From the NCBI RefSeq assembly GCF_014466985.1, contig NZ_AP022826.1, forward strand, positions 1,550,001 through 1,614,000: a DNA stretch of 64,000 nucleotides. The letters are read 5' to 3'. The translations under genes were made by a program, and so were the position numbers. The first letter of the stretch is position 1. Each line of letters opens with the position of its first letter. Below the pieces are notes generated by a model. It was not told the origin of the DNA, searched no databases, and saw only the letters and a list, made by a program, of their open reading frames with translations. The DNA is from Nitrosophilus labii. Lineage in GTDB: Bacteria; Campylobacterota; Campylobacteria; Campylobacterales; Nitratiruptoraceae. Of the stretch, positions 7,813 through 50,246 are shown piece after piece.

Positions 7813-8335
7813 ATGGATGAAAAAATGCTTGCTAAATCTACTACTAAATCAAACCAACCAAATCTCTTTTATCCATCTTTAAAAGAATATGCTTGATAGT
7901 AACGATCCGCTTATTGCTTTGGCAGATACAATAGATTGAACTGTTTTTGAAAAAGAGTTTGCAAAATACTACAGTAACGAGGGAAGACCTGCTAAACCTA
8001 TTAGGTTGACGGTGGGACTATTGATTTTAAAACAGTTAGAGAATTTAAGTGATGAGAATATTGTATTACAATGGAAGAGAAATCTATATTATCAATATTT
8101 TTGTGGAATGAGGGAGTATCAACCTGCATATCCTTGTGACCCGACGGATTTAGTTTACTTTAGAAAGCATATTGGTAAAGATGGGATAGAGAAGATATTT
8201 GCAATAAGTATCGATCTACGTGGCAATGCTAAAGAAGAAAAACAAGTTATAGTCGATACGACAGTGCAAGAGAAAAATATAACCTATCCTACAAGACATA
8301 CCAAGAATTTCGCGTCTGAAGGAATTATAACATAA
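7813..8335 (+). pseudogene. IS5/IS1182-like transposase, N-terminal relic
   Basis: Broken transposase start. The first codons read to KEYA then stop; a frame change restores MLDSNDPLIALADTID, a TGA replaces the expected Trp codon (around 7937), then the frame continues through KPIRLTVGLLILKQLENLSD, PCDPTDLVYFRKHIG and VIVDTTVQEKNITYPT. Sequence homology ends there and the DDE core is missing. These segments match the N-terminal DUF772 domain of IS5-group transposases. At least one frameshift, one nonsense change and a 3' truncation: dead. Confidence 0.75.
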
Positions 8336-8336
8336 G

Positions 8337-8515
8337 GGTCAAGACTAGTTTAGCAATAAAAATATGCTAAACTATATCGATATGAAGGGCAAAAATAGAT
8401 ATATAAAAAATGCGCATATTTCAGAGAGAAAATTTAAAGAGATTCTGAAATGTTTTTGCTTAGATTTAACAGCAAAACAGACATCTGAAATAACAAAAAT
8501 TAATCGAAATACAAT
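8337..8515 (+). pseudogene. IS1595-family transposase, 5' part (interrupted)
   Basis: ATG at 8382 starts a reading frame with ISERKFKEILKCFCLDL and TSEITKINRNTI, the N-terminal zinc-less/HTH region of IS1595-type transposases. It is cut after the Ile codon by the element at 8516-9677; the frame resumes at 9678 with NRYFNKFRERIVRLC. The GGGTCAAGACTAG at 8337 is a likely element end. Confidence 0.75.
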
Positions 8516-8641
8516 CGAGCCACTTGCAGATTAGTAAAAATCACCTATGATTTAAGCTAAATTAAATTTTAAAAAGCTAAGTCTGCCTTCACTATGTTAT
8601 AATTTTTTACCACAAAAACCTAACAGAAGGAGACTTAGCTT

Positions 8642-9475
8642 ATGGAAAATATTGTATCAAAAATATCTACAAACCTATCTAAAATGTGGAATAAAATCTT
8701 AAACCTTGAAAAGACACTATTTTCAGCGTTAAGAGAGGATTAAGATTAGAGGAGTTATCTCACAAAGAACAAAAGTTCATTAAAATATTAGATTTTGCTC
8801 AAATTGAGAAAAATATTACAGTTGTTTCTATCACCAATACTCCAAAAGATAGAATTGAAATTGCAAGAGTGTTTATAGCAAAGAGTGTTTATAATATTCA
8901 AACAACAAGAGATTTAATAGAGAGGCTCTATCGTGATAGAACTTTAAGAGTTATATGTGGGTGGAGATATAAAAGTGATATTCCAAGCGAATCAAAATTT
9001 AGTAGAGTTTTTAACCCGGATTATACAATAGAATTTGTTTCAGTAATGCTTTTGCTTGAGCTTTAGGGGCTTTTTAACAATTTTGAAGGTTTATCTATAA
9101 GGTGATAAGTCAAAAAATTTTTAATTGTCTATAAACGAAGTGTTAAATGCTAATGTGATAAAGTCTATCGCAAAATCCGGGATAAATTAGGACATCGCCC
9201 AATTATAGATATAAACCCTAAAAATTCAAAAGAACTAAAAGCAAAAATCAAATTACAAAAAGAAGAAATTAAGAAATTTGAGTTTTTAAATTTAGCACAA
9301 TCATCTGATGAACACCATTATAATCAAAGAAGTATGGTTGAGAGAGTAAACAAGTATCTCAAAGATGACTTTGGATGTAAAACAATCTATTACAAAGGAG
9401 CTACAAAAGTAGCTTCTGTATTAGCATTTGGAATTTTATCTATCTGTATTCATCAGAGTTTGCAGCTTGTTACTT
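8642..9475 (+). pseudogene. DDE transposase, internally deleted
   Basis: Starts MENIVSKISTNLSKMWNKIL after an AGAAGGAG site. A frameshift lies near 8740 (the frame continues LRLEELSHKEQKFIKI). It runs to CGWRYKSDIPSESKFSRVFN, is interrupted at 9015-9181 by a MITE-like repeat, and resumes as GHRPIIDINPKNSKELKAK, EHHYNQRSMVERVNKYLKDD and a stop at 9475. The last block looks like the final acidic-residue region of an IS4/IS5-superfamily transposase. About half the catalytic domain is absent. Confidence 0.7.
9015..9181. repeat. MITE-like repeat, copy 1
   Basis: A 167-bp sequence with terminal inverted repeats (CCCGGATTATACAATAGA / reverse of TCTATCGCAAAATCCGGG). About three quarters identical to the copy at 45675-45840. 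Its ends also match the left end of the IS1380 relic (9849), so it may have been mobilised by an IS1380-type transposase. No coding capacity. Confidence 0.7.
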
Positions 9476-9677
9476 AAAATAGTCATAAAAAAGTAAAAAA
9501 GAGGACAATTTTAGCTATCAAACCATAAAAAGTGGAGTAAAAATGGGAATTTTTTAAGATTTTAGGGAGAATTGAGATAAAACATTGACTATATTGTCAC
9601 ATAGAGATTTTTTTAATCTCAAAAATTGCCAGGAAGATAAACTAGGCTGTTTGTGATGTTTGAATTTGCAAGTGGTT

Positions 9678-9848
9678 CAATAAATAGATATTTTAATAAA
9701 TTCAGAGAGAGAATAGTGAGACTTTGTCAAATTGATTCTCCATTTCAGGGAGAAATTGAAGTTAATGAGAGTTATTTTGGAGCAAAAAGAGTAAAAGGTA
9801 AAAGAGGCAAAGGAGCAAGAGGAAAAACTATCGTATTTGGTATTTTAA
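9678..9848 (+). pseudogene. IS1595-family transposase, middle part
   Basis: Continues the frame broken at 8515: NRYFNKFRERIVRLCQ, then FQGEIEVNESYFGAKRVKGK and KTIVFGIL. EVNESYFG is the family's catalytic-acid region (VDETYFGG type). It is cut at TTAA (9845-9848) by the IS1380 relic, and the C-terminal part is not found on the other side of that element. It is not an independent gene, although an open frame runs from 9653 into the neighbouring repeat. Confidence 0.75.
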
Positions 9849-9966
9849 ACCCAGATTTTGCAATAGAGTTCTTCTTGAATAAGAAAATTTAATGATATTA
9901 TTTTGAAGTTTATCTTTTTTCTCAACTAAAAAGCGATAAAAGTTATCCAAATCCACCAATAGGAAG

Positions 9967-10160
9967 AGATAGATTCTTGTTTTTTTCAAAAAGAGAGTTC
10001 ATCCAAGCTCTTCTTTTTTTGGCTAGAGCCATTTTGAGCACTTTTTGATTGGAGTAGTGATTAGTAATATAACTTCCTATTGCAAAGCAATAGGCTCTGA
10101 TAGTTGTGAAAGACATTGATTTGATTGTAAAAGAGAGTGTTTAAAAAGAGCTAGGATATT
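9967..10160. repeat. 194-bp target-site duplication, left copy
   Basis: As far as I can see it is identical to 11946-12139 and immediately abuts the left inverted repeat of the IS1634-type element. The duplicated DNA is the 3' part of the IS1380 transposase gene. Confidence 0.9.
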
Positions 10161-11945
10161 CCTGAATTGTGCGGAAAGACACCCAAAAATTAGGTATTGA
10201 ATATAGCGGAGTAAATTAGAGATTGATAATTGTTAAAATTAAAAAGTTTAATAGAGTCTTTGGTTTCAATGGCTTTCATATTTTTTATAAGTTCAATTAT
10301 AAGTTTTTTAGAAAAAGTAAATTGCACATTATGAAGTTTTAACCTTCTTTCAAATTCTTTATAGATTGCATAAGCTACAAAGGCTACGAGGATATGGGCT
10401 TTGATTCTATATTCTAATCTATGATGAATCGGTCTGATTTTTAGGTCAGTTTTAGATATTTTAAAAGCCTCTTCAATATGCCAAAGATTTTTATAATGTT
10501 CTATAATTTCTTGATGAGATAAAGAAAAATCGTTTGTAATAAATCCTTTAATACCATCAAGTTTTTCATCTTCTGTTATCTTTTCAAGATTAAGTTGAAT
10601 CTTTGTTTTGCAATCTTTGCTTAGGTCTAAAAATTTTGCATAGGGTGATAGTTTTAAATTAGATTTTGTGATGTTTGGAGATGTTTGAATTTTGTTTTTG
10701 AGTTTTTCAATTCCCTTTTGTCTTAAATAGTTATCTTTTTTAAATCTTTGTGTAGAAAAAGATAGAACTATTCTTTGCGCAATTTTCTCTTTTTTAATAG
10801 TTTTATCTTTTTCTTTGCAAATAAGCTCTTCATCTAAAGCTATCTCTTTTGTATCACCATCAGATATAAAAACAAGATTTGCAATTTCTCTTTTTATCTC
10901 ATCTTTTAAAGCTTTTATGCGTGAGCCAATAATATATTTGTATCCTTTTTTATGAAGCTCAATAAGGTTGCAGTTACTTAGCATTCCTCTATCTGCAACT
11001 ACTATAGGTTTTTGTTTGAGAGAAAATCTTTTTTCAAAGTTTATAAGTGTTTGGATTAATGTCTTTCCTTCAAATCTATTTCCCTCATATACTTCATAAG
11101 CTAAAGGATATCCTTCAAGTGTTGTTAAAAGTCCTATTTGAATCTGCGGTCTATTTAATTTTCCCTCTTTGGAAAAACCAACCCTTCTTAAATCATCTTC
11201 ACTCTCACTCTCGAAATGCAAAGTCGTTACATCATAAAAGGCCACTATTAATTTATCTTCTATAATTTTCATTGTATGATTAAAAATACATTTTTGAATC
11301 TCTTCTCTTGATTTTTTAGAGTATAAAATATCAAGAAGTCTATATACACTATAAATAGAAATATCTTTTTGTTTAAAGAGTTTTTGATAGTTTATAAAAT
11401 TTAATTTACTCCCAGGAGAAAGTATTCTTGATATTACTAAATCCTTGAAATACTCAAATCTCTTTTCAAACTTTTTTATACTTACTTTCTTAAAATACTC
11501 TTTACATCTAAAATCTTTTATAATCTTTCCAAATATAAGCTCTCCGCCTATGGATATAACTTTATCGTTATCAATATCTATAAAATCAACTCTCTTACCT
11601 AAAATATCTGCTTTTTCATCTTTATTATCTTCATATAAATCAAAGAGAGTCGGCTCTAACTCTTTTAATCTCTTTTTAGCTTTATCTAAAAGAAGTGACC
11701 TTTTTATTTCATCTTTTGCAGAACCTATAGTCTCTATTACTTTATACTTTCCTCTTTTTTTACTTATGATTTGAATGCTAACACTTCCGCTTTTATTCTT
11801 TTTCTCTCTAATAAACATAGACAAATTATACTTTAAAAAAACATTTGAGACACCCTCTTTTGCCTTTTTAACCCATGAAATGCCCATAATTAGGGAGTTT
11901 TGTTTCTGTGATTTTTCGTTTTTATGAGATTCCGCACAATTCAGG
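10161..11945 (-). mobile_element. IS1634-type insertion sequence, complete
   Basis: A 1785-bp element with perfect 16-bp terminal inverted repeats CCTGAATTGTGCGGAA (10161-10176 and, inverted, ending at 11945), one intact transposase gene, and a 194-bp direct repeat on either side. IS1634 elements are known for very long, variable target duplications, and this is a clear example. Identity of the two 194-bp copies suggests a recent insertion. Confidence 0.92.
10190..11818 (-). CDS. IS1634-family DDE transposase
   Basis: A 542-residue transposase, intact. I start at the ATG at 11818 (MFIREKKNKSGSVSIQII) because a longer frame would begin outside the element's end at 11945. Seen: IVAFYDVTTLHFESE (first catalytic Asp), RPQIQIGLLTTLEGYPLAYE, PIVVADRGMLS (second Asp) and the C-terminal HYKNLWHIEEAFKISKTDL with the YxxLWxIExxFR-like catalytic Glu region. 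These are standard for the IS4/IS1634 group. Likely still functional. Confidence 0.92.
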   Translation of the reverse strand: MFIREKKNKSGSVSIQIISKKRGKYKVIETIGSAKDEIKRSLLLDKAKKRLKELEPTLFDLYEDNKDEKADILGKRVDFIDIDNDKVISIGGELIFGKIIKDFRCKEYFKKVSIKKFEKRFEYFKDLVISRILSPGSKLNFINYQKLFKQKDISIYSVYRLLDILYSKKSREEIQKCIFNHTMKIIEDKLIVAFYDVTTLHFESESEDDLRRVGFSKEGKLNRPQIQIGLLTTLEGYPLAYEVYEGNRFEGKTLIQTLINFEKRFSLKQKPIVVADRGMLSNCNLIELHKKGYKYIIGSRIKALKDEIKREIANLVFISDGDTKEIALDEELICKEKDKTIKKEKIAQRIVLSFSTQRFKKDNYLRQKGIEKLKNKIQTSPNITKSNLKLSPYAKFLDLSKDCKTKIQLNLEKITEDEKLDGIKGFITNDFSLSHQEIIEHYKNLWHIEEAFKISKTDLKIRPIHHRLEYRIKAHILVAFVAYAIYKEFERRLKLHNVQFTFSKKLIIELIKNMKAIETKDSIKLFNFNNYQSLIYSAIFNT

Positions 11946-12139
11946 AGATAGATTCTTGTTTTTTTCAAAAAGAGAGTTCATCCAAGCTCTTCTTTTTTTG
12001 GCTAGAGCCATTTTGAGCACTTTTTGATTGGAGTAGTGATTAGTAATATAACTTCCTATTGCAAAGCAATAGGCTCTGATAGTTGTGAAAGACATTGATT
12101 TGATTGTAAAAGAGAGTGTTTAAAAAGAGCTAGGATATT
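11946..12139. repeat. 194-bp target-site duplication, right copy
   Basis: Matches 9967-10160 over 194 bp and abuts the right inverted repeat of the IS1634-type element. Confidence 0.9.
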
Positions 12140-13024
12140 GTACGCCATCATAATGAATCGAAAGGAAGCTTCCGTAGCGAAAAAGCCTTTGAGTACAAAA
12201 CTATCTATGGCAAAATCATATTTGAGCTCTTTGATTTGGTTTTCAGCATCAGCTCTTTGATTGTAGAGTCTATAGATCTGATCTGCTGGTAAAGAAAGAT
12301 TGGTCACATAGGCGCTATATCTATACAGCGGTTCATCAAAAAGAGTTTTACCTGTCGCTTTTGGATAGTTTTCGACTCTTTTTCGCACAATAACATAGCG
12401 TCTAGGATAGGGACTATTTGGATGTTTGAGATACAATATGGCTGTATCGATCCCTTTTGTTATCGATATCCATTGAGTTATTTTACCTATCTCGTATTGG
12501 ATATTTGTATAGAACTTTACCGCTATGATGTAGTTTAGCTCTTTGTTCTCTAGCCATTTGAGTAGTTCATTGGCATAAAAACCGCTATCGGCTCTGACTA
12601 AACCTATAGGATGATCTTGCAAAACTTTCTCGAATGTCTCTTGTAAAAAGGCTTTGTAACTGCTAAGACTTACGCTATTACCGCTTCTTAGCCAAGCGTT
12701 CTACCATTTTCGTCTGTTCTATAAAGACTATGAGAGGATGATGAGAAGGTCTGCCAGGCTTTTTAGGATTATAGCCAACTTTCGCTCCCTCTTGATTGCC
12801 ATATCTTGTTATAACTGTAGAATCCAAATCTATCGTCAAACTATCTACATCTATCCTTTACGATTCATAAAATCTTTTAATATTTTCATCCCTCCAAATG
12901 GCGTAATATTCTTGTCTATATACCCAATCTTCAATTCACCCATTTGGTTAGTCCCTCTTCCCTTTAGTTTTTCCGCTTGTATGGTAGGTTTAATATTTTA
13001 TCATTATCTAATGAAAAATTTGGG

Positions 13025-13363
13025 TTAAATACGGTTATTCTTTTAGAAAATACAAAACACTACAAAGAGGCTAAATCAGCTTATATAGCGGCACTTAATA
13101 GATGGAAAAATGATAAAGAGCTTCTTTTCGGTTTAACAAATATACACTTTTTGGAAAAAGATTATAAAAGTGCAAAAAAGTTCTATGAAAAGGTAAATGA
13201 TTTAAAAAACGGTCCACTTTTAAACAATCTAGCTATAACATATCTTAGATTAAAAGAATGCACAAAAGCAAAAAATACCATATTACAGGCTATTAGTCTA
13301 AATGATAACTACAAAACATTTTATGAAGATACTCTAAACGAAATTAATGCTTTATGTAGATAA
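13025..13363 (+). pseudogene. TPR-repeat protein, C-terminal remnant
   Basis: About 112 codons of a host gene cut off by the IS1380 right end. Seen: HYKEAKSAYIAALNRWKNDK, LLFGLTNIHFLEKDYKSAKK, LLNNLAITYLRLKECTKAK, a run of tetratricopeptide repeats, ending EINALCR. This order resembles the C-terminal TPR part of PA2778-type cysteine peptidases, but that match is from memory and the catalytic half is missing. The open frame can be extended back to 12977 only by reading IS1380 sequence. Its stop lies directly before attL. Confidence 0.6.
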
Positions 13364-13379
13364 TTTGGTGGAGGTGTGG
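13364..13379. other. attL
   Basis: TTTGGTGGAGGTGTGG, identical to the 3' end of the tmRNA gene at 23856-23871. It follows directly on the TPR-protein stop codon. Confidence 0.85.
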
Positions 13380-13508
13380 AAACCGCTTGATAAGCTTCTT
13401 ATAAGTTTATATTAGTTTATAAAAGTCTATATAAATGACCTATTTTTGGTAGTTTTATTGAGTTTATTTAGTCTATTTTGATATGATAAAATTTATCAAA
13501 ATTTATAG

Positions 13509-13545
13509 TCAAGCATAACTTTTAAGTATCCCCAGAAGTATCCCC
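13509..13545. repeat. Putative integrase arm site, left copy
   Basis: A 37-bp sequence containing AGTATCCCC twice, identical to 23766-23802. It lies 130 bp inside attL and just upstream of the integrase gene. Paired GGGGATA-type direct repeats near integrase genes and att cores are typical arm-type binding sites; binding itself is inferred. Confidence 0.6.
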
Positions 13546-14765
13546 GAAAAAAACTTAAATGAGTAAAAAATAAAGGGGAAATAAGAAGTAAAAAGTAAAG
13601 GAATAAAATGCCAAAAGTTGTAAAACCCTTAACTGATAAAACAATCAAAGAGGCAAAAACTAAAGAAAAAGAGTATAAGATACCAGATGGCGACCATCTC
13701 TATTTAAGAGTAAGACCAAGCGGAACTAAAACATTCGTTTTTATTTACAATTCTCCAATAGATGGCAAAAGGAAAACGCTAACAATTGGAACATATCCAC
13801 AAATCACACTAAAACAAGCAAGAGAAGCAAGAGATAAAGCTAATCGTTTACTTGCTCAAAACCTTGACCCTATATTGGAAAGAGAAAAAGAGAAATTTCA
13901 AAATAACCTTACCTTTCAAACCATTCTATACGAATTTATCCAATGGAGAAGCACAAAAGTCAAAGAAAATACTTTAAAATCCGATAAGAAAAGAATAAAT
14001 AATTATATCATTCCATTCTTTGGAAATAAAAAGCTCACAGATATAGAAATTTCTCACTTATTGGAATTTATTAAATATATTCAAAATAAGAAGTTTAATA
14101 AAGACAATAAAAGCTCCAGTAATAAAATCGATACCATACAAAAAAATTTCATACTATTAAATCTTATTTTCAAATACGCTATTAATAAGCAATATATAAA
14201 AAACAATCCTTTAACTAATTTTGATTTATCTATGGTAATCGGTAAAAAAGAGGAAAAACATTACAACTCTTTGACCAAAGCGGAGGATATGCGAGATTTT
14301 TTATCCAAGCTCCAAAAAGCCGATATTCCGTTAATAGCAAAACTTGCGATAGAGTTTCAAGCTTTAACGGCTCAAAGAGTTTCAAATGTAGTCAATCTAA
14401 AATGGAAATATATTGACTTTTCTAATAACATCATCACATTTCCAAAAGAAACAATGAAAACCAATAAAGAGCATAGAATACCTGTAACTTCAAGAGTTAA
14501 AGAGATATTGGAAATTATAAAAACCCAAAACTTTAACGATATATTTGTATTTGCTTATCAAAGAGACAAACCTATAACAGATAGCACCATTAATGATTAT
14601 ATTCAACGCATAAATCCTAACATTAGCAGTCATAGCTTTAGAGGGACATTTAGAACAATAGCCACTGAATATATTTACATCCACGGATTTAGCCAAGTGT
14701 CAACAGCAACCCAAAAATGTACCACTTCGGCAATGTAAAAATGCACCACCTGTTACATTGAGAAA

Positions 14766-15581
14766 CTAACTGTTTAACCCTGTAAAAATACCTGCTTTTC
14801 TTTTTTGCTTAAGCCTATAGCTTTCACCCTGAATGTTTAAGATATGACTGTGATGAATAAGTCTATCAAGTATTGCAGTAGTCAATGCTTCATCATTGTT
14901 AAGTACCTCCTTGAATTTGGTAAAGTTAAGATTGGATGTGATTATGATCGAGCCGCTCTCGTATCTTTTGTTGATTACCTGGAAAAAGAGGTTGGCCTGA
15001 TTTTCATTTAGTTTTATATATCCAAATTCATCTATTATCAAGAGTTTTGGGATATTTATCACTTTTTTAAAATAGTCGTTCAATCTGCCTGCCTGCTGGG
15101 CTATTTCAAGCTGCAATAGCAGATCTGCAGCGGTAATAAACCTGGTCTTTATTCTATTTTGTGTTGCTATATATCCCAAGGCTATGGCAAGATGGGTTTT
15201 TCCTACACCGCTTGGACCAATAAGCAGGATATTTTCGGCATTATCTATAAACCTTAGAGTAGATAGTTCATTTATCATATTTTTATCTACAGATGAGCTT
15301 TTAAAGTCAAACATCTCTAAAGTTTTAACCTTTGGAAATCCCGCCAATCTAAGAGTGGTTTCTTTGGACCTTTGAATCTTTTTTTCATACTCATACTCAA
15401 ATAGTTTCAATAAAAACCGGGTATATGAGAGATTCTCTTTCATAGACTGTTCTGCGATATATGAGTAGCTCTCTTGTATTGCCGGTAATCTGAAAATTAG
15501 GGCATACTCTTTTATTCTTTCATCTATAGAGGCTGCTTCATATGATATGCTCTTTTTTTGTATTGATTTATTGCTACTCAT
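14766..15581 (-). CDS. istB: IS21-family helper ATPase IstB
   Basis: A 271-residue AAA+ ATPase that assists IstA in target-site selection. Seen: Walker A LIGPSGVGKTHLAIALG, Walker B LLIIDEFGYIKLNE and a sensor ITSNLNFTKF. Overlaps istA by 8 bases, the usual istAB coupling. C-terminus near the left end of the IS. Confidence 0.95.
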   Translation of the reverse strand: MSSNKSIQKKSISYEAASIDERIKEYALIFRLPAIQESYSYIAEQSMKENLSYTRFLLKLFEYEYEKKIQRSKETTLRLAGFPKVKTLEMFDFKSSSVDKNMINELSTLRFIDNAENILLIGPSGVGKTHLAIALGYIATQNRIKTRFITAADLLLQLEIAQQAGRLNDYFKKVINIPKLLIIDEFGYIKLNENQANLFFQVINKRYESGSIIITSNLNFTKFKEVLNNDEALTTAILDRLIHHSHILNIQGESYRLKQKRKAGIFTGLNS

Positions 15582-16719
15582 TTACAGCCTCCTGTAACAA
15601 ATCCTCATAATCTTTCAAAGAGGTTTGTGGTTCTATTTTTACTTTATCATCCAATATTTTTAAATAAAGTTTATTATCCTCTTTTGAATATTCGGTTTTT
15701 CTAAAAAAGTTGTTGTTTTTATCTATTGACACAAAAACCTTTTTGTTTGTAGAATTACTTTTCGTATGTATCATTAATGAACTCCTCGGCTCTGCTGTTT
15801 TTACAAGTGGCAGCAGAGCCTTCTTTTCTATTTCAAACAGTTCTCTCGGTTTTTGCTTCAGTGTAGAATGTACTCTATTACTTGTAATCTCAAGCCAGCT
15901 AAATATTTGTGAATTTAAAAGCTTACAATCGATGACAAGAGAAGAATTTTTCAGCTTTGCTTTTAAGGGTATATAGAAGTTTCTTTTCAAATATCCTATA
16001 TATCTTTCAACTTTCCCTTTCGTTTTAGCTCTATATGGTTTGCATAGAAGTGGATTGAAACCGTAGTCTCGTGAAAAATCAAGAAACTTTTCATTAAATT
16101 TGTGTTTTCCTGCTCCATATGCGTTTCTTTTTATTACAACACTTTTTAGGTTATCATAAAGTATATTTTTAGGTATTCCGCCAAAGTAAGAATATGCTTT
16201 TTTATGGCAATCTTCAAATGTCTCATATCTCATATTGTCCGTAAAACAGACGTATGTATATCTGCTGTATCCAAGTATCATTATAAATGCATATATTGGA
16301 TTTTTGCCGCCTTTTATAACTGTCCAGTCAACTTGAGCTTGCTCACCAGGCAAAGTCTCAAATCTTACAATACTCTCCTCTTTTAAAGGCATAAACTTTT
16401 TATATAAATCACTTACAAAGCTTTGAACAACTCTTCCTTTTCCTTCATATCCCATATCCAAAATCTCCCTGTAAATAACAGTGGAAGGGATTTTATCTGG
16501 CAAAGCCTCTTTTACTCTTTTTTCAATATACGATTTAAAAGTATCGAGCTTCGATTTGTAAACAACTTTTTTCCTTGGTTTCAAACTCTCTTCCTTGAGT
16601 CTTTTTGAAATTGTTCTTCTATCTAAACCGGTAATTCTCGATATCCCCCTTATGCTGTACCCCTGCTTTTTTAAAGTGTGTATCATTACAAACTCCTCAT
16701 AGCTTATCATTTCATCCAA
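15574..16719 (-). CDS. istA: IS21-family transposase IstA
   Basis: A 381-residue DDE transposase. Seen: N-terminal HTH (KQGYSIRGISRITGLDRRTI), catalytic core beginning PGEQAQVDWTVI (first Asp), GIPKNILYDNLKSVV (second Asp) and KTKGKVERYIGYLKRNF (Glu). Translation is coupled to istB. No defect seen, so the element may be active. Confidence 0.95.
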   Translation of the reverse strand: MDEMISYEEFVMIHTLKKQGYSIRGISRITGLDRRTISKRLKEESLKPRKKVVYKSKLDTFKSYIEKRVKEALPDKIPSTVIYREILDMGYEGKGRVVQSFVSDLYKKFMPLKEESIVRFETLPGEQAQVDWTVIKGGKNPIYAFIMILGYSRYTYVCFTDNMRYETFEDCHKKAYSYFGGIPKNILYDNLKSVVIKRNAYGAGKHKFNEKFLDFSRDYGFNPLLCKPYRAKTKGKVERYIGYLKRNFYIPLKAKLKNSSLVIDCKLLNSQIFSWLEITSNRVHSTLKQKPRELFEIEKKALLPLVKTAEPRSSLMIHTKSNSTNKKVFVSIDKNNNFFRKTEYSKEDNKLYLKILDDKVKIEPQTSLKDYEDLLQEAVNE

Positions 16720-16966
16720 TCTCCCTCTTTAAAACTAAAGAAGAAGATTTTACAAAATCTTCTATTTTTTAACTTCGCAGGTGGTACATTTTCACTTTGC
16801 CGTTATGGTGTATTTTAGCATTGCCGATGACACCAAGATGTTATTAAAGCCCAGCTATCTCATTCCATTGGCAATAAAGTTGACCAAGCCTATTTAAAAA
16901 CAGATTTTATTAATCAAAGAAAGGAACTAATGAAATGGTATGAAAGCTTCCTGTTAAAGGATAAAA

Positions 16967-17607: not shown

Positions 17608-17811
17608 ATGGAAAGATTATTAACAATACAACAGGTTACCGAGATTGTAGGTTTTAAAAAACCAACAATTTATAAGTATATCAGAGAACAAAACTTTCCG
17701 AAACCTATAAAGACAGGAAATAGAGCTTCAAGATGGAGCTATCAAGAAGTAATGGAATGGATAGAAAATTTAAAACAAAACAGGGAGGTTAACAATGAAA
17801 AAGTTTCTTAA
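17608..17811 (+). CDS. alpA: AlpA-family excisionase/regulator
   Basis: A 67-residue MerR-like winged HTH protein. Seen: LLTIQQVTEIVGFKKPTIYKY, the DNA-recognition helices, then FPKPIKTGNRASRWSYQEV, matching the AlpA pattern FPxPxxxGxRxxxWxxxEV. AlpA proteins activate or assist integrase-driven excision in P4, CP4-57 and satellites of Gram-negative bacteria. AAAAGGAGC before the ATG is a strong ribosome-binding site. Overlaps the next gene by 17 bases. Confidence 0.88.
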   Translation: MERLLTIQQVTEIVGFKKPTIYKYIREQNFPKPIKTGNRASRWSYQEVMEWIENLKQNREVNNEKVS

Positions 17812-18343: not shown

Positions 18344-18575
18344 TTTTTATCCTTTTAACTTCATTGAGAATTTTATTAAAATTAAGCAAATTTACAATTA
18401 ACCCTAAAAATAGTATAGCAGTAGAAAAGCTAAAAAACAATATAGAAATCGTATTAGTAGATTTTAATAATATTGCAATACTACCGCCAAACCCTGCACT
18501 AAAAAGCAAAAGTTTAGTTTTTATTCCATCTAACAACACTTTTAAAACATCTAATCCAAATTTTTTATCACTCAT
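18333..18575 (-). CDS. Small two-helix membrane protein
   Basis: 80 residues, start ATG at 18575 with AGGTGA upstream. Two hydrophobic stretches: about residues 21-40 (KLLLFSAGFGGSIAILL) and 44-65 (TISILFFSFSTAILFLGLIV). Short basic ends. It overlaps the HTH gene upstream by 8 bases and micro-protein A downstream. No recognised family. Confidence 0.6.
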   Translation of the reverse strand: MSDKKFGLDVLKVLLDGIKTKLLLFSAGFGGSIAILLKSTNTISILFFSFSTAILFLGLIVNLLNFNKILNEVKRIKNEW

Positions 18576-18822
18576 CTTTCTCACCTACTGGAGAGCTTTT
18601 ATCAGAAGTAATATTAGAAGATTTAACCTCATCACAAACAACATCTTTAACATTATCAAGAGTTTTGGCTTTGATGTAGTTTTGAATAAAAGGCATTACC
18701 CACGATGGAACATTATTCCAATTTCTAATAGTGTTATAACTGATGTTAGCAACTTTAGCAAATTCTTTTTTATTCAATCCAGCTTTTTTAAGAAGTTGTT
18801 TAAACTCTTCATTAGTCATCAT
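18568..18822 (-). CDS. HTH repressor-like protein
   Basis: 84 residues, start ATG at 18822 (a second ATG follows at 18819) after AAAAGG. Seen: an XRE/YdaS-like helix-turn-helix, FKQLLKKAGLNKKEFAKVAN then ISYNTIRNWNNVPSWVMPFI; the C-terminal third is low-complexity and acidic. First gene of a leftward cluster, transcribed divergently from the replication genes. Two matching 17-bp palindromes lie between the two promoters, so this is the likely master repressor of the element, binding to control both directions. Confidence 0.7.
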   Translation of the reverse strand: MMTNEEFKQLLKKAGLNKKEFAKVANISYNTIRNWNNVPSWVMPFIQNYIKAKTLDNVKDVVCDEVKSSNITSDKSSPVGEKDE

Positions 18823-18850
18823 AAGCCTTTTAGGTATGAATTTAATGCAA

Positions 18851-18856
18851 ATTATA
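18851..18856 (-). promoter_or_regulatory. Putative -10 of the leftward repressor promoter
   Basis: On the minus strand reads TATAAT, 29 bases upstream of the HTH start codon. Operator 1 covers where the -35 would be, which would give autoregulation. Confidence 0.5.
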
Positions 18857-18864
18857 ACATATTT

Positions 18865-18881
18865 TGTATTTATCCCATACA
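18865..18881. promoter_or_regulatory. Operator 1
   Basis: TGTATTTATCCCATACA, a pseudo-palindrome with TGTAT/ATACA arms, differing at only two positions from operator 2 (18930-18946). It lies upstream of the rightward -35 and over the expected leftward -35. Confidence 0.65.
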
Positions 18882-18888
18882 CGAATCA

Positions 18889-19178: not shown

Positions 19179-19460
19179 GTGAATCTAAAAGAGCTTAGAA
19201 ACCAGATAAAGCAAAGTTTAAACAGGGAAAATGTAGCTGCAATGCTGCAAGCTTTAGGATATGAAGTTAACAGAGATTACAAATTTAAAATAAGAGATGA
19301 AAGAACCCCGTCATCTTCTATTAGGAGAGATGGCTATATCAAGGACTTTGGCAGCGGATGGGGAGGCGATATAGTTGCATTTATCCACGAACACCATAAC
19401 ACACCATTAAAAGAAGCTACCCTTTGGGTAGCCCAGTGTTTAGGGATAAGATATGAATAA
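19179..19460 (+). CDS. DnaG-type CHC2-like domain protein without zinc ligands
   Basis: 93 residues, GTG start at 19179. The order IKQSLNRENVAAMLQALGYE, FKIRDERTPSSSIRRDGY, DFGSGWGGDIVAFIHEHHN and LKEATLWVAQCLGI follows the DnaG zinc-binding domain (CPFH-E-TPSF...CFGCG-GD-I-F), but the four Cys/His zinc ligands are replaced (FKIR and DFGSGWGG). Probably the N-terminal piece of a split primase. Overlaps the next gene by 8 bases, so subunits may be made in fixed ratio. Confidence 0.65.
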   Translation: MNLKELRNQIKQSLNRENVAAMLQALGYEVNRDYKFKIRDERTPSSSIRRDGYIKDFGSGWGGDIVAFIHEHHNTPLKEATLWVAQCLGIRYE

Positions 19461-20301
19461 TCTACCTCAGCCTATCGACCTATCCCAACCGCTACACAAC
19501 ACAACACCGAGACAAAATTATACCAATAAAGAGGAAAAGCAAAGCTTTAATCTAAATGAATGGCATATCAACTTTAAAAAAGCATTGCAAAAACAAGAAG
19601 AGATAGCAAGGACATCTATTGAGTTGCCAGAAGGATTTATAAATACTGCTGCTTTGATGTATGAGATAATAGATAGAGATATTTGGAGATTAGCAAAAGG
19701 AAAAGAAGTTAAAGATAGATATTTGGGATATAGCAGCAAATACAAAAGCTTGACTATCTCACTATTTAAAGATGATGAGGTTAAAACAATCTGTATAAGA
19801 GAAGCAACAGATAAAGAAGGAAATCCTATAAAGTGGAAAACATACGGAAGTAAAAGATTTATCCCTTATAGGATTTTAGATGAAAACGACCCTACCCTTT
19901 TTATCGGATATGGGATAGGAGAGTTTTTATTGCTGGAGCTATTAGAGCTAAACTATATGATACTTCAAAGCGATAGCATAGCTTTTAATTTTGCTAATAA
20001 TCCATATACGCCAGATATTAAAAATAGATACATATTTGCTTTGCTTGATAATGATGAGAGTTGCAAGAAAACAATAAATCATTTAAAAGAGCATTTTAAA
20101 AGCTGCAAAGTCTATCCGATAGATTTTGAAAATATTTTAGATAAAGAGTTGCCAAAAGGTTATGACTTTAGGGATTTTTGCAATGATGTAGCAAAAGAGA
20201 TTAGAAAAGATAGCTATTTGGCTAATCCTTTAGAAGTAAAAGAAGCAATAATTGAAACTTTAGCAAATGAAATTGAAATAATTACAGGAGCGAGAAAATG
20301 A
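19453..20301 (+). CDS. Toprim-like primase-associated protein
   Basis: 282 residues. N-terminal 45 residues are polar and disordered. A middle beta-rich part (YLGYSSKYKSLTISLFKDDE) resembles the core leading into toprim domains, followed by LFIGYGIGEFLLLELLELNY (Glu in place of the toprim Glu), LQSDSIAFNFA and YIFALLDNDESCKKTINHLK (DxD-like acidic motif). This is what would be expected of the catalytic half of a plasmid/phage primase separated from its zinc domain. The assignment is by motif order only. Coupled to both neighbours by short overlaps. Confidence 0.55.
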   Translation: MNNLPQPIDLSQPLHNTTPRQNYTNKEEKQSFNLNEWHINFKKALQKQEEIARTSIELPEGFINTAALMYEIIDRDIWRLAKGKEVKDRYLGYSSKYKSLTISLFKDDEVKTICIREATDKEGNPIKWKTYGSKRFIPYRILDENDPTLFIGYGIGEFLLLELLELNYMILQSDSIAFNFANNPYTPDIKNRYIFALLDNDESCKKTINHLKEHFKSCKVYPIDFENILDKELPKGYDFRDFCNDVAKEIRKDSYLANPLEVKEAIIETLANEIEIITGARK

Positions 20302-21722
20302 GTTTAAGACTACAAGAAGCAATCAAAAAGGTTAAAACATTAGAGGCTCAAGAAAAAAACCTTGAGCCAGTAAGCGAGATAAGCGAAGCAACTAATGATA
20401 TTGTAACACAAAAACGACCAAATTATAAAGAATTCAAAGCTAATAATTGGATAAAAAAAGACAATGTAGAGATACTTAATGAATTGGATAAAAAAGGGAG
20501 TGCCATTTGGCTTAAAAGCGATGGCTCTTTGGCATATAGATTAGATAAAGATGGGCAAATAGAGTCAGCAGAAGCGACAAAGGCAAAGATAGTTTTATCA
20601 AATATATTAGATAAAAACATCTCCATTTTTACATCTAAAGCAGATATAAATCCAACCGATTTAATACTGGTGCAAAAAGAGATTTTTGACCCTCATATTA
20701 ATGCGGAATTTTTCAAAAAAGCAGGTGCATATTACAGAAATGTTTTTAAACCTACTCGATATATGACGCTAACGGAAACGCCAAAGAAAGACCCTAAACT
20801 CATTCTTGATTTTATATATCATTTGGTTACCTATGACGATAAGTATTTTGACTATTTTATCAATTGGATTGCTTATTTTTGGCAAACAATGATACGACCA
20901 AATACAGCAATTGCCCTTAAAGGAACGCAAGGAACGGGAAAAGGGATATTTTTTGAAGAGATTATAAGGCAACTGTGGGGTTTAGAGCAAACGATACAGA
21001 TAAACGACAATATTTTAAAAAGCCATTTTTTAAGACCTATTTTTGAAAATAAACTTTTTTATAATCTTGATGAAGTATCGCAAGGATACAAAGACAATAA
21101 ACGCCTAAAGGGAATGCTTAAAGGATTGGTAACAAACGATTACATCTTACTTGAAGAAAAACACAAAAACATAAAAGAGCCGATACATTTAAAAGGTGCG
21201 GTATTGGTAACTTCCAATGAGCCAAAATTTTTGGAGATTGAAGCAGGAGACAGGAGATATACTATATTCTCAAGCAATAAAAAGCTCATTGAAGTTAATT
21301 TTTTAGTTGGCAGCTATGAAGATTTAAAAAGAAGGATACATCAAGAGCTTGACGACTTTGCAAGACTGCTTTATCACTATCCAGTTGATTACGAAAAAGC
21401 CAATATAGTAATGAATACTCCAGAAAAAGAGGCTCTTATCGAAGCTACAAACGATAAATACACTCTTTTTGCGCACGCCATAAAAACAAAAAATTTAGAC
21501 TTTTTTTCTCATCTAAAAGATAAATTGTCTCTAACTTATAATGAGATAGAACAATCCTTTAAAAGAGGTGAAATAAAAAGAAGCAATCTTAAAGAGTGGT
21601 ATGAAAAAACTTTTGGTGAGGAAGTGCATCCAAAAACACTATTAAGAGAACTAAAAACAAGAGATATAATTTTTTCTAATACTAAAACAATCAAGGGTGA
21701 TGTGTATATTATCATTCCTTGA
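20298..21722 (+). CDS. D5/DUF5906-type primase-helicase
   Basis: 474 residues, SF3-type replicative helicase. Seen: Walker A LKGTQGTGKGIFFEEIIRQL (about residues 209-228), Walker B NKLFYNLDEVSQG, KGMLKGLVTNDYILLEEKH and the sensor AVLVTSNEPKFLEIE, followed by RRYTIFS. This matches the DUF5906/NrS-1-phage-type helicases that load at iteron origins of plasmids and satellites. C-terminal 100 residues look like a winged-helix tail. Starts 4 bases inside the preceding gene. The iteron array follows directly. Confidence 0.82.
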   Translation: MSLRLQEAIKKVKTLEAQEKNLEPVSEISEATNDIVTQKRPNYKEFKANNWIKKDNVEILNELDKKGSAIWLKSDGSLAYRLDKDGQIESAEATKAKIVLSNILDKNISIFTSKADINPTDLILVQKEIFDPHINAEFFKKAGAYYRNVFKPTRYMTLTETPKKDPKLILDFIYHLVTYDDKYFDYFINWIAYFWQTMIRPNTAIALKGTQGTGKGIFFEEIIRQLWGLEQTIQINDNILKSHFLRPIFENKLFYNLDEVSQGYKDNKRLKGMLKGLVTNDYILLEEKHKNIKEPIHLKGAVLVTSNEPKFLEIEAGDRRYTIFSSNKKLIEVNFLVGSYEDLKRRIHQELDDFARLLYHYPVDYEKANIVMNTPEKEALIEATNDKYTLFAHAIKTKNLDFFSHLKDKLSLTYNEIEQSFKRGEIKRSNLKEWYEKTFGEEVHPKTLLRELKTRDIIFSNTKTIKGDVYIIIP

Positions 21723-21780
21723 CTCCTTTTTTCCCACCTCGACCTTATTTACTCTTTTTTTTGTCCTATAAAGTGTGAGT

Positions 21781-22168
21781 TTTTGTCCACCCCAAAACTA
21801 CTTTAAAGGCATTAAAATCCCATAAATAAGGGAATTATAGAGACTTTTATATAAAATTTTTTATACACCCTAATAAATATTAAAAAATAAAGAAAATATC
21901 GATAATATCGTTATTTTAAGAGGGTGGATGAAAAATAATTTTTGTCCACCCTTGATACACCCTTTGTCCACCCCAATCACAATCAGGGTGCATAAAGGGG
22001 TGGATGAGGGTGCATAAAGTGCAAATTTTCATCCACCCCACCAGATTATCGATGTTATGGTGCTTCCAAGCGATTTTACCACTTTTGTAGGGTGGATAAA
22101 AATTTTAGCCAAAAACCGCTTAAAATCTCGTATTCACGGGGGTTTTGGAGATTTTGGGGTGGATGAAA
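21781..22168. other. Iteron-type replication origin
   Basis: Eight copies of a GGGTGGA-TGAAA or reverse core in 390 bp: reverse at 21781-21793, forward 21922-21934, reverse 21939-21952, reverse 21963-21974, forward 21997-22007, reverse 22026-22039, forward 22090-22101, forward 22156-22168. A separate direct repeat AGGGTGCATAAAG occurs at 21985-21997 and 22007-22019. AT-rich DNA follows (22170-22260), a plausible melting region. It lies right behind the helicase gene, as in satellites and plasmids. Confidence 0.78.
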
Positions 22169-22169
22169 T

Positions 22170-23190
22170 GCATAAAAATCAAAAAAAATTTTTTCCCAGA
22201 TTTTTTTGTAAAATTTTTTCCTGAGACTATAATATTGAGTTTTATTAAAAAAATTTATAATACAATCTGAAAAACTTTTGTAATTTTTCAACAACAAAAA
22301 CAAACTTTTACCTCTTATAGGAAAAATTCCTACGCAAAAATTTTTAACATTCTCAAATACAACAAACTTACAAAGGCTTTACCTCTAAAAGGAAGAAGCA
22401 TTTACTCTTTGCTGGAGTATTCCAATAAGAAGAGAAGTTATTTATTTCAGCAGAAAAAATAATCGTTAGCCTGTGGTTTATCCTACCTCTTACAGAAAAA
22501 ACTTCAATAAAAAAAGCTTTAATAGCAGTGGAACTTGCTATCGGCAACCCAATCAGTCGGCTAAAAGCCCTGATTACAACGAGCAAAGCGATAATACTTT
22601 GTCGGAAGTCACCGATAGCAGAAAAATTATAGCACAATTCCTTGAAATCATTAAAAGAAAACCTTGTAATGTAGAAAATCTAACAAGAAAAAACTTTAGA
22701 GCTTTTAGAACTTTGTTTTGCTTGTAACCTATCCTACCTCATCACTTTACTAAAAGAAAGGAAGTTGCCTATCGGAAAACATAATGCTCACCAACAAATA
22801 GGCAACTTCAAAACAAATCATATCATTGTTTTTCTTCAAACATTCAAATTTTAATTTTAAGCCACTTTTTACTTCACCTAATGTTTTTATCAAAAAAGAT
22901 ATTATCGTTAAAATATGGCAAAGCTAAAGCCATTTAAAAGAGTAAGCAATCCTTTGAAAAGATTAAATCAAATAAGAGAAAATTTTATTCAAACTTTTTT
23001 TATATATTTTTTTTAATATTTATAAATTATTATAATATTATATATATTAACAAACCATCTCAAAATAAAACTAACAAATGCTTCATTTCAATACGATGTT
23101 TTAAAACTCCACGAGAAAAGTTAGGATAAAAAAATTATACTCGGGCGAAGATGGGGTAGGATATAGGTTTTGAGATGTCAAGGCGGGGGT
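22170..23190. other. Noncoding, structure-rich segment of the island
   Basis: No convincing gene in 1 kb. Open frames at 22368-22637 (minus) and 22473-22727 (plus) lack good starts or family resemblance; a 33-codon frame at 22915 has no ribosome-binding site. Visible structure: TAGGAA-AAA-TTCCTA at 22318-22332, GAAGTTGCCTAT / ATAGGCAACTTC at 22761-22772 and 22798-22809, a three-way fold at 22536-22620, and recurring ACCTCTTA-type motifs near 22309, 22379, 22484 and 22734. Downstream it becomes very AT-rich (22985-23055). Confidence 0.6.
22536..22620. ncRNA. Candidate three-way-junction RNA or DNA structure
   Basis: Outer stem TGCTATCGG / CCGATAGCA (22536-22544 with 22612-22620). Inside, hairpin AATCAG-tc-GGC TAAAA GCC-CTGATT and hairpin CGA-g-CAAAG, 8-base loop, CTTTG-TCG. 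All three stems close without mismatch apart from small bulges. No promoter or terminator is obvious, so transcription and strand are unknown. Confidence 0.4.
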
Positions 23191-23218
23191 GGGGGGGGTA
23201 TGTGTATTTTGATATAAT
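23191..23218 (+). promoter_or_regulatory. Promoter with G8 tract before the small RNA
   Basis: TATAAT at 23213-23218; a run of eight G at 23191-23198 (preceded by CGGGGGT) occupies the -35 region. The predicted start, 7 bases after the -10, coincides with the first base of the RNA's closing stem. Homopolymeric G runs are rare in this AT-rich DNA and are typical slippage sites. Confidence 0.55.
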
Positions 23219-23224
23219 ATTTTC

Positions 23225-23297
23225 ATCAAAAGGGGCTCCACTCCTTGAGAGTGCGAGGTCATACCACCACCGATAGGTAGGTGCGTCCCCTTTTGAT
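23225..23297 (+). ncRNA. Candidate 73-nt structured small RNA
   Basis: Closing stem ATCAAAAGGGG (23225-23235) with CCCCTTTTGAT (23287-23297), 11 perfect pairs. Hairpin 1: CACTC CTTGA GAGTG (23239-23253). Hairpin 2: CACCACC GATA GGT-a-GGTG (23265-23283), seven pairs with one bulged A. A TATAAT box lies 6 bases upstream of the stem. The AAAAGGGG/CCCCUUUU stem could also act as a terminator. No match to an RNA family I know. Confidence 0.55.
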
Positions 23298-23765
23298 ACT
23301 TTCAAATTACCCTGCTTCCAAACATTCGCCCTTTATCGGATAAAAAGCTTCCAATAAAGAAGAACTGCGATATCTCAAATAATCCAGTAAATAGAGAAAA
23401 CTATCTTTGAATCATTCAGCAATTATACAAATGTTTTTAAACCTAAAATGAGACTACATAAAAGCCATTATTCTTTAATTTTATATATTATCCAATAAGA
23501 TGAAATTTTATATTCTCTTGCAAAGTATGAAGATTTTTAAAAAATCAAAAAATATTGAAAATAATAATTTTCAATACTAAAAAATGCTTTTTATTTAAGA
23601 TTAGGCAATTTTTTTTTTGAAAAATAGTCTTTTCTTAAATAGAATAACTAATTTTTAAAGTGTTTTTTACTCATTTAAGTTTACAAAGCTTAAACAAGTA
23701 AAGACAATAATAATTTTCTAAAGACAAGAAAAAACTTTTCCTTTTTATCAGTAAGAAAATTAAAC

Positions 23766-23802
23766 TCAAGCATAACTTTTAAGTATCCCCAGAAGTATCC
23801 CC
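23766..23802. repeat. Putative integrase arm site, right copy
   Basis: Identical to 13509-13545 and in the same orientation; ends 53 bp before attR. Both copies are followed by an A-rich stretch and ACTTAAA. Confidence 0.6.
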
Positions 23803-23855
23803 AATGAAAACTTAAAACTTTATAAGTTCGATTTTTAGGGCATTTTGAAGCTTTA

Positions 23856-23871
23856 TTTGGTGGAGGTGTGG
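23856..23871. other. attR
   Basis: TTTGGTGGAGGTGTGG, which includes the 3' acceptor end of ssrA (reverse strand CCACACCTCCACCA). The gene is kept whole at this end. Confidence 0.85.
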
Positions 23872-24235
23872 GGAATCGAACCCCAGTCCGAAAACAACCG
23901 ACCATAGGCCTCTACGTGCGTAGTAGCGCTGATTGATCTTAGTTACCGAAGGCTCAACGCCCGAAACCTTCGATAACCCAGCCTAAATGAGGTCAGTCTG
24001 AGGTTAGGCAGCCTCAGACTCTAGCCCTCCTAGGTGTGACCCCGCAATATCCAAAGCCGAAGGGCGAGCTTTGGTGCGAGGGACCATTATGTTAAGTTAA
24101 ACTTACGCAGCTACAGCGTAAGCTGGTCTGTAATCTGTATTGTTTGCGTCTATTTTTTTGAGGAATTTTTACGGCGTTCCTCAAGCCGGCACGCAGCCTA
24201 TGGAGGGCTGCTCCCGTCGAAGCCATATCACCCCC
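23858..24235 (-). ncRNA. ssrA: Transfer-messenger RNA (tmRNA)
   Basis: 378 nt. 5' GGGGGTG pairs with CACCTCC before the 3' CCA, forming the acceptor stem; GGGTTCGATTCCCC is the T-arm. The tag frame (24147-24103) reads ANNTDYRPAYAVAA then TAA, matching the Campylobacterota tag style that ends in AYAxAA. It rescues stalled ribosomes with SmpB. The 3' end is the integration site of the neighbouring element; the CCA end is intact. It lies 27 bases after trpA on the same strand. Confidence 0.96.
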
Positions 24236-49086: not shown

Positions 49087-49108
49087 TTCATTTCCTTCTT
49101 ATTTGTAA

Positions 49109-49177
49109 GTATAACGGTTGAGTTGAGAAATATTTGAGCCGCAGGTTCAAATATTTCTCTACAATGATCTGTTATAC
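49109..49177 (-). other. attC-like recombination site 1
   Basis: 69 bp, near-identical design to site 2. GTATAAC and GTTATAC ends are perfect complements; the GAGAAATATTTGA / TCAAATATTTCTC arms are the same; minus-strand right end CAACTCAACCGTTATAC. Lies 1 base after the (restored) HNH stop and 22 bases before the DUF262 start. Confidence 0.72.
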
Positions 49178-49672: not shown

Positions 49673-49691
49673 ATACTACCTTTCTAATTTT

Positions 49692-49893
49692 GTATAACGC
49701 CGAGCAGAGCGATGCTCCAAGAGGAAATTGAAAGCGAAGCTTTCGGATTTTCTCGAAGGAGTGTAAAAGAGTGTTCGCTCCTGCGATTTCAAGGAAATAT
49801 TTTTACTTCGCAAAGCAAAAAAAAACGATTCTCTTGTTTTGTTACGCCTCGACAGAGGAGTGACAAAAACTCGCTCTGCTCGGCGTTACGCTG
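49692..49893 (-). other. Long attC-like palindromic site 0
   Basis: 202 bp bounded by GTATAAC (49692) and GTTACGC (49887), with an 18-bp perfect inverted repeat TAACGCCGAGCAGAGCGA at the ends. The middle has more partial repeats and is G+C richer than its surroundings. It lies 20 bases upstream of the HNH gene, where the preceding attC or attI would be. Longer and more perfectly paired than usual attC sites, so less certain than sites 1 and 2. Confidence 0.5.
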
Positions 49894-50246
49894 GCGCCTC
49901 TGGCGACAGTGTAACTATTTATTTTATTCATTAACACAATAATACTTAAAAAAACCATATATTGTCAATTTTTTATATTTAATGTATTTTTATATTAGTT
50001 TAGTAATAAAAATAGATAATACCAAGAGAAATTCGCAATTTTTATCCCCAATAAGTTATATTTCATCTAGTATTAAACAGCTTTTTCACAAATTTTCATA
50101 ACCTTTTGTTATAGAGTACGTCATTATCTATAGTTGGGATATTGTTACAATATTTTTCAAAGCAAAGATTTGCTGTTTTAGATAAAGATTTAGAGATTAA
50201 AAAGTATTCTTTAGCTACCATTGCAATATAAAAAAGAGGAATTGTA
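49894..50246. other. AT-rich gap without recognisable gene
   Basis: 353 bp of AT-rich DNA before aguA. I see no gene, no integrase remnant and no repeat; only the GAGGAATTG ribosome-binding site directly before aguA. Confidence 0.6.

Follow-up and report, generated by a model that had tools for sequence, protein, structure and literature searches.

A candidate small RNA gene with two predicted sister RNAs in the noncoding region of a putative P4-like phage satellite

The analysed window, a stretch of 64,000 nucleotides to which all positions refer, contains at 23225..23297 on the plus strand a predicted 73-nt three-way-junction RNA, here termed RNA1, which appears to be an undescribed small RNA gene, probably real and without known family. 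RNA1 is located in a 1.66-kb noncoding region between the replication module of an integrated satellite and the tmRNA gene, and the same region contains on its minus strand two predicted sister RNAs (RNA2 and RNA3) which are newly described here. On balance, we slightly favour reading RNA1 as one of three small non-coding RNAs that a P4-like satellite encodes and that act as regulatory RNAs. That RNA1 is really transcribed is judged rather likely; given a real RNA, its function as an antisense-type regulator, deduced by analogy, appears possible with somewhat less than an even chance.

The initial annotation had singled out the interval 23191-23297, which begins at 23191 only through including a G-rich upstream tract, and had stated that a closing stem starts exactly where transcription from the TATAAT at 23213 should begin. 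This is borne out by the sequence. The −10 box TATAAT (23213..23218, plus strand) is preceded by TG at 23210-23211 resulting in an extended −10 motif (TGaTATAAT), and the predicted start at 23225, 7 nt past the hexamer, coincides with the first base of the stem ATCAAAAGGGG/CCCCTTTTGAT, in which 23225-23235 and 23287-23297 form 11 perfect pairs. The two enclosed hairpins are well paired (8 and 9 bp), as had been claimed, hairpin 1 reading CUC-CACUC[CUUGA]GAGUG-c-GAG and, after a 5-nt linker, hairpin 2 reading ACCACCACC[GAUA]GGU-a-GGUG-c-GU; in place of the single bulge described earlier, three 1-nt bulges (C, A and C) were counted. The segment 23225-23297 folds with a minimum free energy of −33.0 kcal/mol compared to −18.9 on average for shuffled sequences (z −4.64; none of 200 shuffles as good), belongs within about the top ten plus-strand 73-nt windows of a 64-kb sweep with respect to stability for its G+C content, and represents the strongest fold of the noncoding region on either strand. 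It is crossed solely by ORFs of 20-56 aa, in agreement with the earlier view of a structure without any gene. The reverse strand folds equally well (−33.7), so that the strand of RNA1 is set by the promoter and not by folding alone.

Start and structure of RNA1 are thus consistent with the earlier description, whereas the 3′ end is weaker than implied there: The CCCCTTTTGATAC at the 3′ end is not a standard terminator, and a terminator scan of the region found no canonical one. Likewise, its placement near the att end is loose, as the boundary between tmRNA and att is ca. 560 bp away from RNA1. The same distance weighs against the idea of a bidirectional terminator or insulator between the satellite and the tmRNA gene, for which the promoter would be fortuitous. 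Such an element would profit from the AAAAGGGG...CCCCTTTT stem, which is the same read from both strands, and from tmRNA transcription heading toward the satellite; however, the branched 51-nt interior is unlike that of intrinsic terminators and the terminator scan was negative, and we therefore hold this explanation to be very unlikely.

The coincidence of promoter and stem was evaluated against chance by scanning both strands of the window for every TGn followed by a hexamer which agrees with TATAAT in at least five of six positions. Of the 64 sites, two are followed, with a start 4–8 nt past the hexamer, by a structure with paired ends whose energy is at least as favourable as −30 kcal/mol, namely those of RNA1 and, on the minus strand, of RNA2; a third reaches −22. 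Random starts attained −30 in 6 of 20,000 cases, a count from which the RNA loci themselves were not excluded, corresponding to about 0.02 expected in 64 sites. When the same scan was applied to related loci, TGATATAAT was found in front of an authentic tRNA-Arg gene in a relative, a result in favour of the promoter motif. A further promoter-stem match at 8656 sits among broken IS copies and was rejected.

RNA2 (22536..22620, minus strand) is predicted as an 85-nt three-way-junction RNA with an RNA1-like hairpin design. Read from 22620 to 22536, its 14-bp closing stem TGCTATCGGTGACT/GGTTGCCGATAGCA, which encloses two hairpins, is separated by 5 nt from TGcTATAAT (−10 box TATAAT at 22626..22631, minus strand), and its fold amounts to −37.4 kcal/mol for 88 nt (z −5.32). 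Two ORFs of 84 and 89 aa overlapping RNA2 matched no Pfam family above its cut-off. RNA3 (22761..22809, minus strand), read from 22809 to 22761, is a predicted 49-nt closed hairpin of 12-13 bp (z −5.98) which begins 7 nt after TGaTATGAT (−10-like box TATGAT at 22817..22822, minus strand) and whose 3′ arm CCGATAGGCAACTTC is followed by CTTTCTTTT. A match to the RNA3 region in genome G487 turned out to be a coding gene and was discarded. RNA1 and RNA2 agree in topology and almost agree in the spacing between promoter and stem, and RNA3 follows the closed-end plan in a shorter form. In both RNA1 and RNA2, hairpin 1 is composed of 3 bp and 5-6 bp with a C bulged out between them on the 3′ side, and hairpin 2 has a 3′ bulge. 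With the closing stems kept, the shared hairpin-1 design arose in 3 (RNA1) and 9 (RNA2) of 4000 shuffled interiors, and was joined by a bulged second hairpin in 0 and 1 of 4000, respectively; the match is suggestive, the two designs having been compared after the folds were seen and not in a blind test. All three RNAs carry the motif CCGATAG in their sense strand; the 1.66-kb region contains four copies of it, one of them as the stem partner in RNA2, whereas the remainder of the window predicts 0.21. Hairpin 2 of RNA1 could form 16 contiguous pairs with RNA3 (6 of them G-U), a score reached in none of 2000 shuffles and due in part to the common CCGATAG motif. Between RNA1 and the att end, 23331-23359 additionally holds the short palindrome CTTTATCGGATAAAAAGCTTCCAATAAAG, whose minus strand contains CCGATA. 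Altogether, the earlier proposal of a real small RNA is supported as far as a promoter-linked structured RNA without known family is concerned, and is reinforced by RNA2, which has the same architecture and is independently placed, and by RNA3.

The RNA family had not been recognised before, and an Rfam scan, suggested as a check at that time, yielded no match for RNA1. At the gathering threshold, Rfam 15 (including C4 RNA, pRNA and tmRNA) reported only the tmRNA at 23858-24235, and relaxed thresholds added chance matches only. On the DNA level, a homologue of RNA1 was detected neither in its own genome nor in plasmids, phages and 397 genomes of the class; the weak matches in the class genomes cover only the AT-rich promoter-like ends. 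Single-sequence covariance models for RNA1 (R1) and RNA2 (R2), each run against 399 genomes, retrieved solely themselves plus noise with E>0.07. Two related satellites (L014 and L015 in genomes G403 and G257) are devoid of RNA1, and viral contigs gave no hits in exact-pattern scans for RNA1 and the packaging motif, nor relatives of the satellite in whole-protein scans. The 15-mer CCGATAGGCAACTTC had 41 matches in viral contigs, approximately the chance number and without an R1-like RNA, and was dismissed. Altogether, the roughly 400 genomes covered provided no homologue in which compensating base changes could be counted. A target search by a whole-duplex scan of satellite and phage revealed nothing distinctive; the best leader match, 14 nt between RNA3 and the phage repressor leader, was reached in 8 of 60 shuffles. 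The lack of homologues, of a canonical terminator and of a convincing target counts against a regulatory satellite RNA.

Sporadic presence, together with closed inverted repeats that are GC-rich within an AT-rich region, would also be expected for MITE-like remnants, i.e. small inverted-repeat mobile elements which inserted into this noncoding part of the satellite, and such an origin has been suggested for the inverted-repeat RNA of PLE (PMC7567579). However, no second copy exists in the 2.09-Mb genome or the relatives searched, and the sequences of RNA1, RNA2 and RNA3 differ from each other, unlike copies of one MITE, which renders this origin quite improbable.

The RNA1 promoter lies directly right of a putative copy of a packaging site (cos/pac; 23116..23196, plus strand) which ends in GGCGGGGGTGGGGGG; a G-rich tract spans 23183-23199. 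In the genome search these 81 bp were 78% identical (E 3.5e-11) to G406:C40:5995-6075 (=L046:5995-6075), an intergenic segment in a prophage contig of another species of the same genus. The prophage segment is positioned ca. 270 bp ahead of where the TerS gene begins, which is followed by the genes for TerL and portal (phrog_51, phrog_2, phrog_1216), and two further short blocks flanking the 81-bp match are common to satellite and prophage in collinear order. The alignment suggests that a copied phage packaging site is probably, if not very probably, present in the satellite. A relative of the prophage large terminase was not found in the genome harbouring the satellite. Copies of a helper-phage packaging site are established for SaPIbov5 and cos PICIs (PMC5052747). 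The satellite described here likewise matches a sequence next to the terminase, but, unlike in SaPIbov5, the site is deduced from one 81-bp match to a prophage of a related species. An inverted repeat TATTGAAAA..TTTTCAATA (23548..23580) recurs in the packaging region of the phage and in the satellites of G403 and G257. Its distance to the G-rich end of the 81-bp block is ca. 130 bp in the phage and ca. 170 bp in the G257 satellite but ca. 350 bp here; RNA1 sits in the extra part of this interval, from which we infer that it was added specifically in this satellite. Inverse counterparts of GATGGGGTAGGATA of the packaging block, namely repeats of the form TACCTCTTA / TATCCTACCTC, occur at 22307, 22378, 22482 and 22726, and many similar TACCTCT repeats were noticed near L046:6340-6480; they might possibly serve as small-terminase binding sites.

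The vicinity of the probable packaging-site copy, the density of repeats in the region and the equally stable fold of the reverse strand are compatible with a DNA-level element, i.e. a cruciform or hairpin of the packaging or replication region acting as a protein-binding or single-strand structure, with an incidental promoter match. We consider this explanation unlikely because two structures on opposite strands both begin 5-6 nt after TGnTATAAT, and because no such structure exists at the corresponding place in the phage packaging region and in the G403 and G257 satellites. Alternatively, RNA1 might bind to terminase or portal and thereby aid or disturb the packaging of satellite vs. phage DNA. 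Its gene lies no more than ca. 100 bp from the probable packaging site and it contains a three-way junction, in both respects reminiscent of the pRNA of phage phi29, which works at the end of the phi29 genome. In contrast to the latter, RNA1 has no sequence or covariance match to pRNA (including Rfam), no closed promoter-linked RNA is found beside the terminase genes of the related phage (L046), and the phage group is a different one, the known pRNAs belonging to phi29-like phages. A packaging RNA is thus regarded as extremely unlikely.

For the preferred reading of RNA1 as a regulatory satellite RNA, the following scenario can be envisaged. Transcription from the extended −10 promoter would begin at the outermost base pair of the closing stem; RNA polymerase would produce stable RNAs whose paired ends might resist nucleases, and the GGGG...CCCCUUUU stem of RNA1 might help to end its own transcript. 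The RNAs might then pair in trans, for instance via CCGATAG or the hairpin loops, with transcripts of the satellite or of the helper phage, such that satellite replication and packaging would be tuned against the phage late genes. The trans-acting role is proposed in analogy to SviR in PLE and the CI RNA in P4. Regulatory RNAs of this kind have been described in satellites: SviR, the inter-inverted-repeat RNA of PLE in Vibrio cholerae, acts on transcripts of both the phage and the satellite (PMC7567579, PMC12987554). By description, RNA1-3 can be set beside SviR as satellite-encoded non-coding RNAs between inverted repeats; SviR, however, is experimentally shown and conserved in all PLEs, whereas the three short RNAs predicted here come from one satellite, and no conservation was detected for them. 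The CI RNA of P4 and phiR73 and the C4 antisense RNA of phage P1 are short structured RNAs of a satellite or phage (cited in PMC7567579). Processing of the replication-operon leader gives rise to the CI RNA, whose targets are leaders that it matches. RNA1 corresponds to them as a short structured RNA of a P4-like satellite, but differs from the CI RNA by its own predicted promoter, its position after the replication genes and by the packaging site, and the lack of a significant leader match, and from the C4 RNA by the lack of an Rfam C4 match.

Very few phage satellite systems (P4 and PLE) have so far yielded regulatory RNAs. Provided that the RNAs are made, they would constitute satellite RNAs in Campylobacterota beside a copied packaging signal and, if the regulatory reading is true, a compact case of how a satellite without capsid genes might manipulate its helper. 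A more far-reaching reading, which we judge decidedly unlikely, would define RNA1-3 as a new class of satellite RNAs with fast-changing sequence and a fixed architecture (an extended −10, a stem that closes from +1 onwards, a first hairpin with bulged C and a CCGATAG element), arranged around a stolen packaging site and steering helper packaging or late expression to the satellite.

The element around RNA1 fits a P4-like phage satellite integrated in the tmRNA gene, as it combines int, AlpA and helicase/primase genes with att repeats at an RNA gene and has no structural genes (cf. PICMI, PMC10803314). The tyrosine integrase (13608..14738, plus strand) is cut off from its C-terminal part by an IS21-type insertion spanning 14739-16800 (istA/istB at 14766-16719), past which the C-terminal part reappears. 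This satellite copy probably cannot excise by its own split integrase and, because of the IS-broken integrase, the region may be decaying, a further point against the regulatory reading. Further components are an AlpA-like regulator (17608..17811, plus strand), an HTH repressor-like ORF (18568-18882, minus strand), a CHC2-like ORF at 19179, a replication protein read as TOPRIM-like (19453..20301, plus strand) with no Pfam match and 87% identity to its G257 counterpart, and a DUF5906 / VapE-like helicase (20298..21722, plus strand). The helicase gene is followed by iteron-like GGGTGGATGAAA/TTTCATCCACCC repeats (21760..22170) as the probable replication origin of the satellite. The left att repeat ATTTGGTGGAGGTGTGG (13363..13379, plus strand) has its other copy at 23855-23871 at the 3′ end of the tmRNA gene (23858..24235, minus strand), the target of integration. 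Both satellite ends also contain a 61-bp direct repeat (90%) with AAGTATCCCCAGAAGTATCCCC (13499-13559 and 23756-23816), which probably provides integrase arm-type sites. Left of the satellite, broken IS fragments are clustered at 8006-12622. At a further position of the window, strong GC-rich imperfect palindromes with GTTATAC/GTTACGC-type ends (49108-49177 and 49690-49910) are grouped around an HNH-like ORF and may represent integron attC-like cassette sites.
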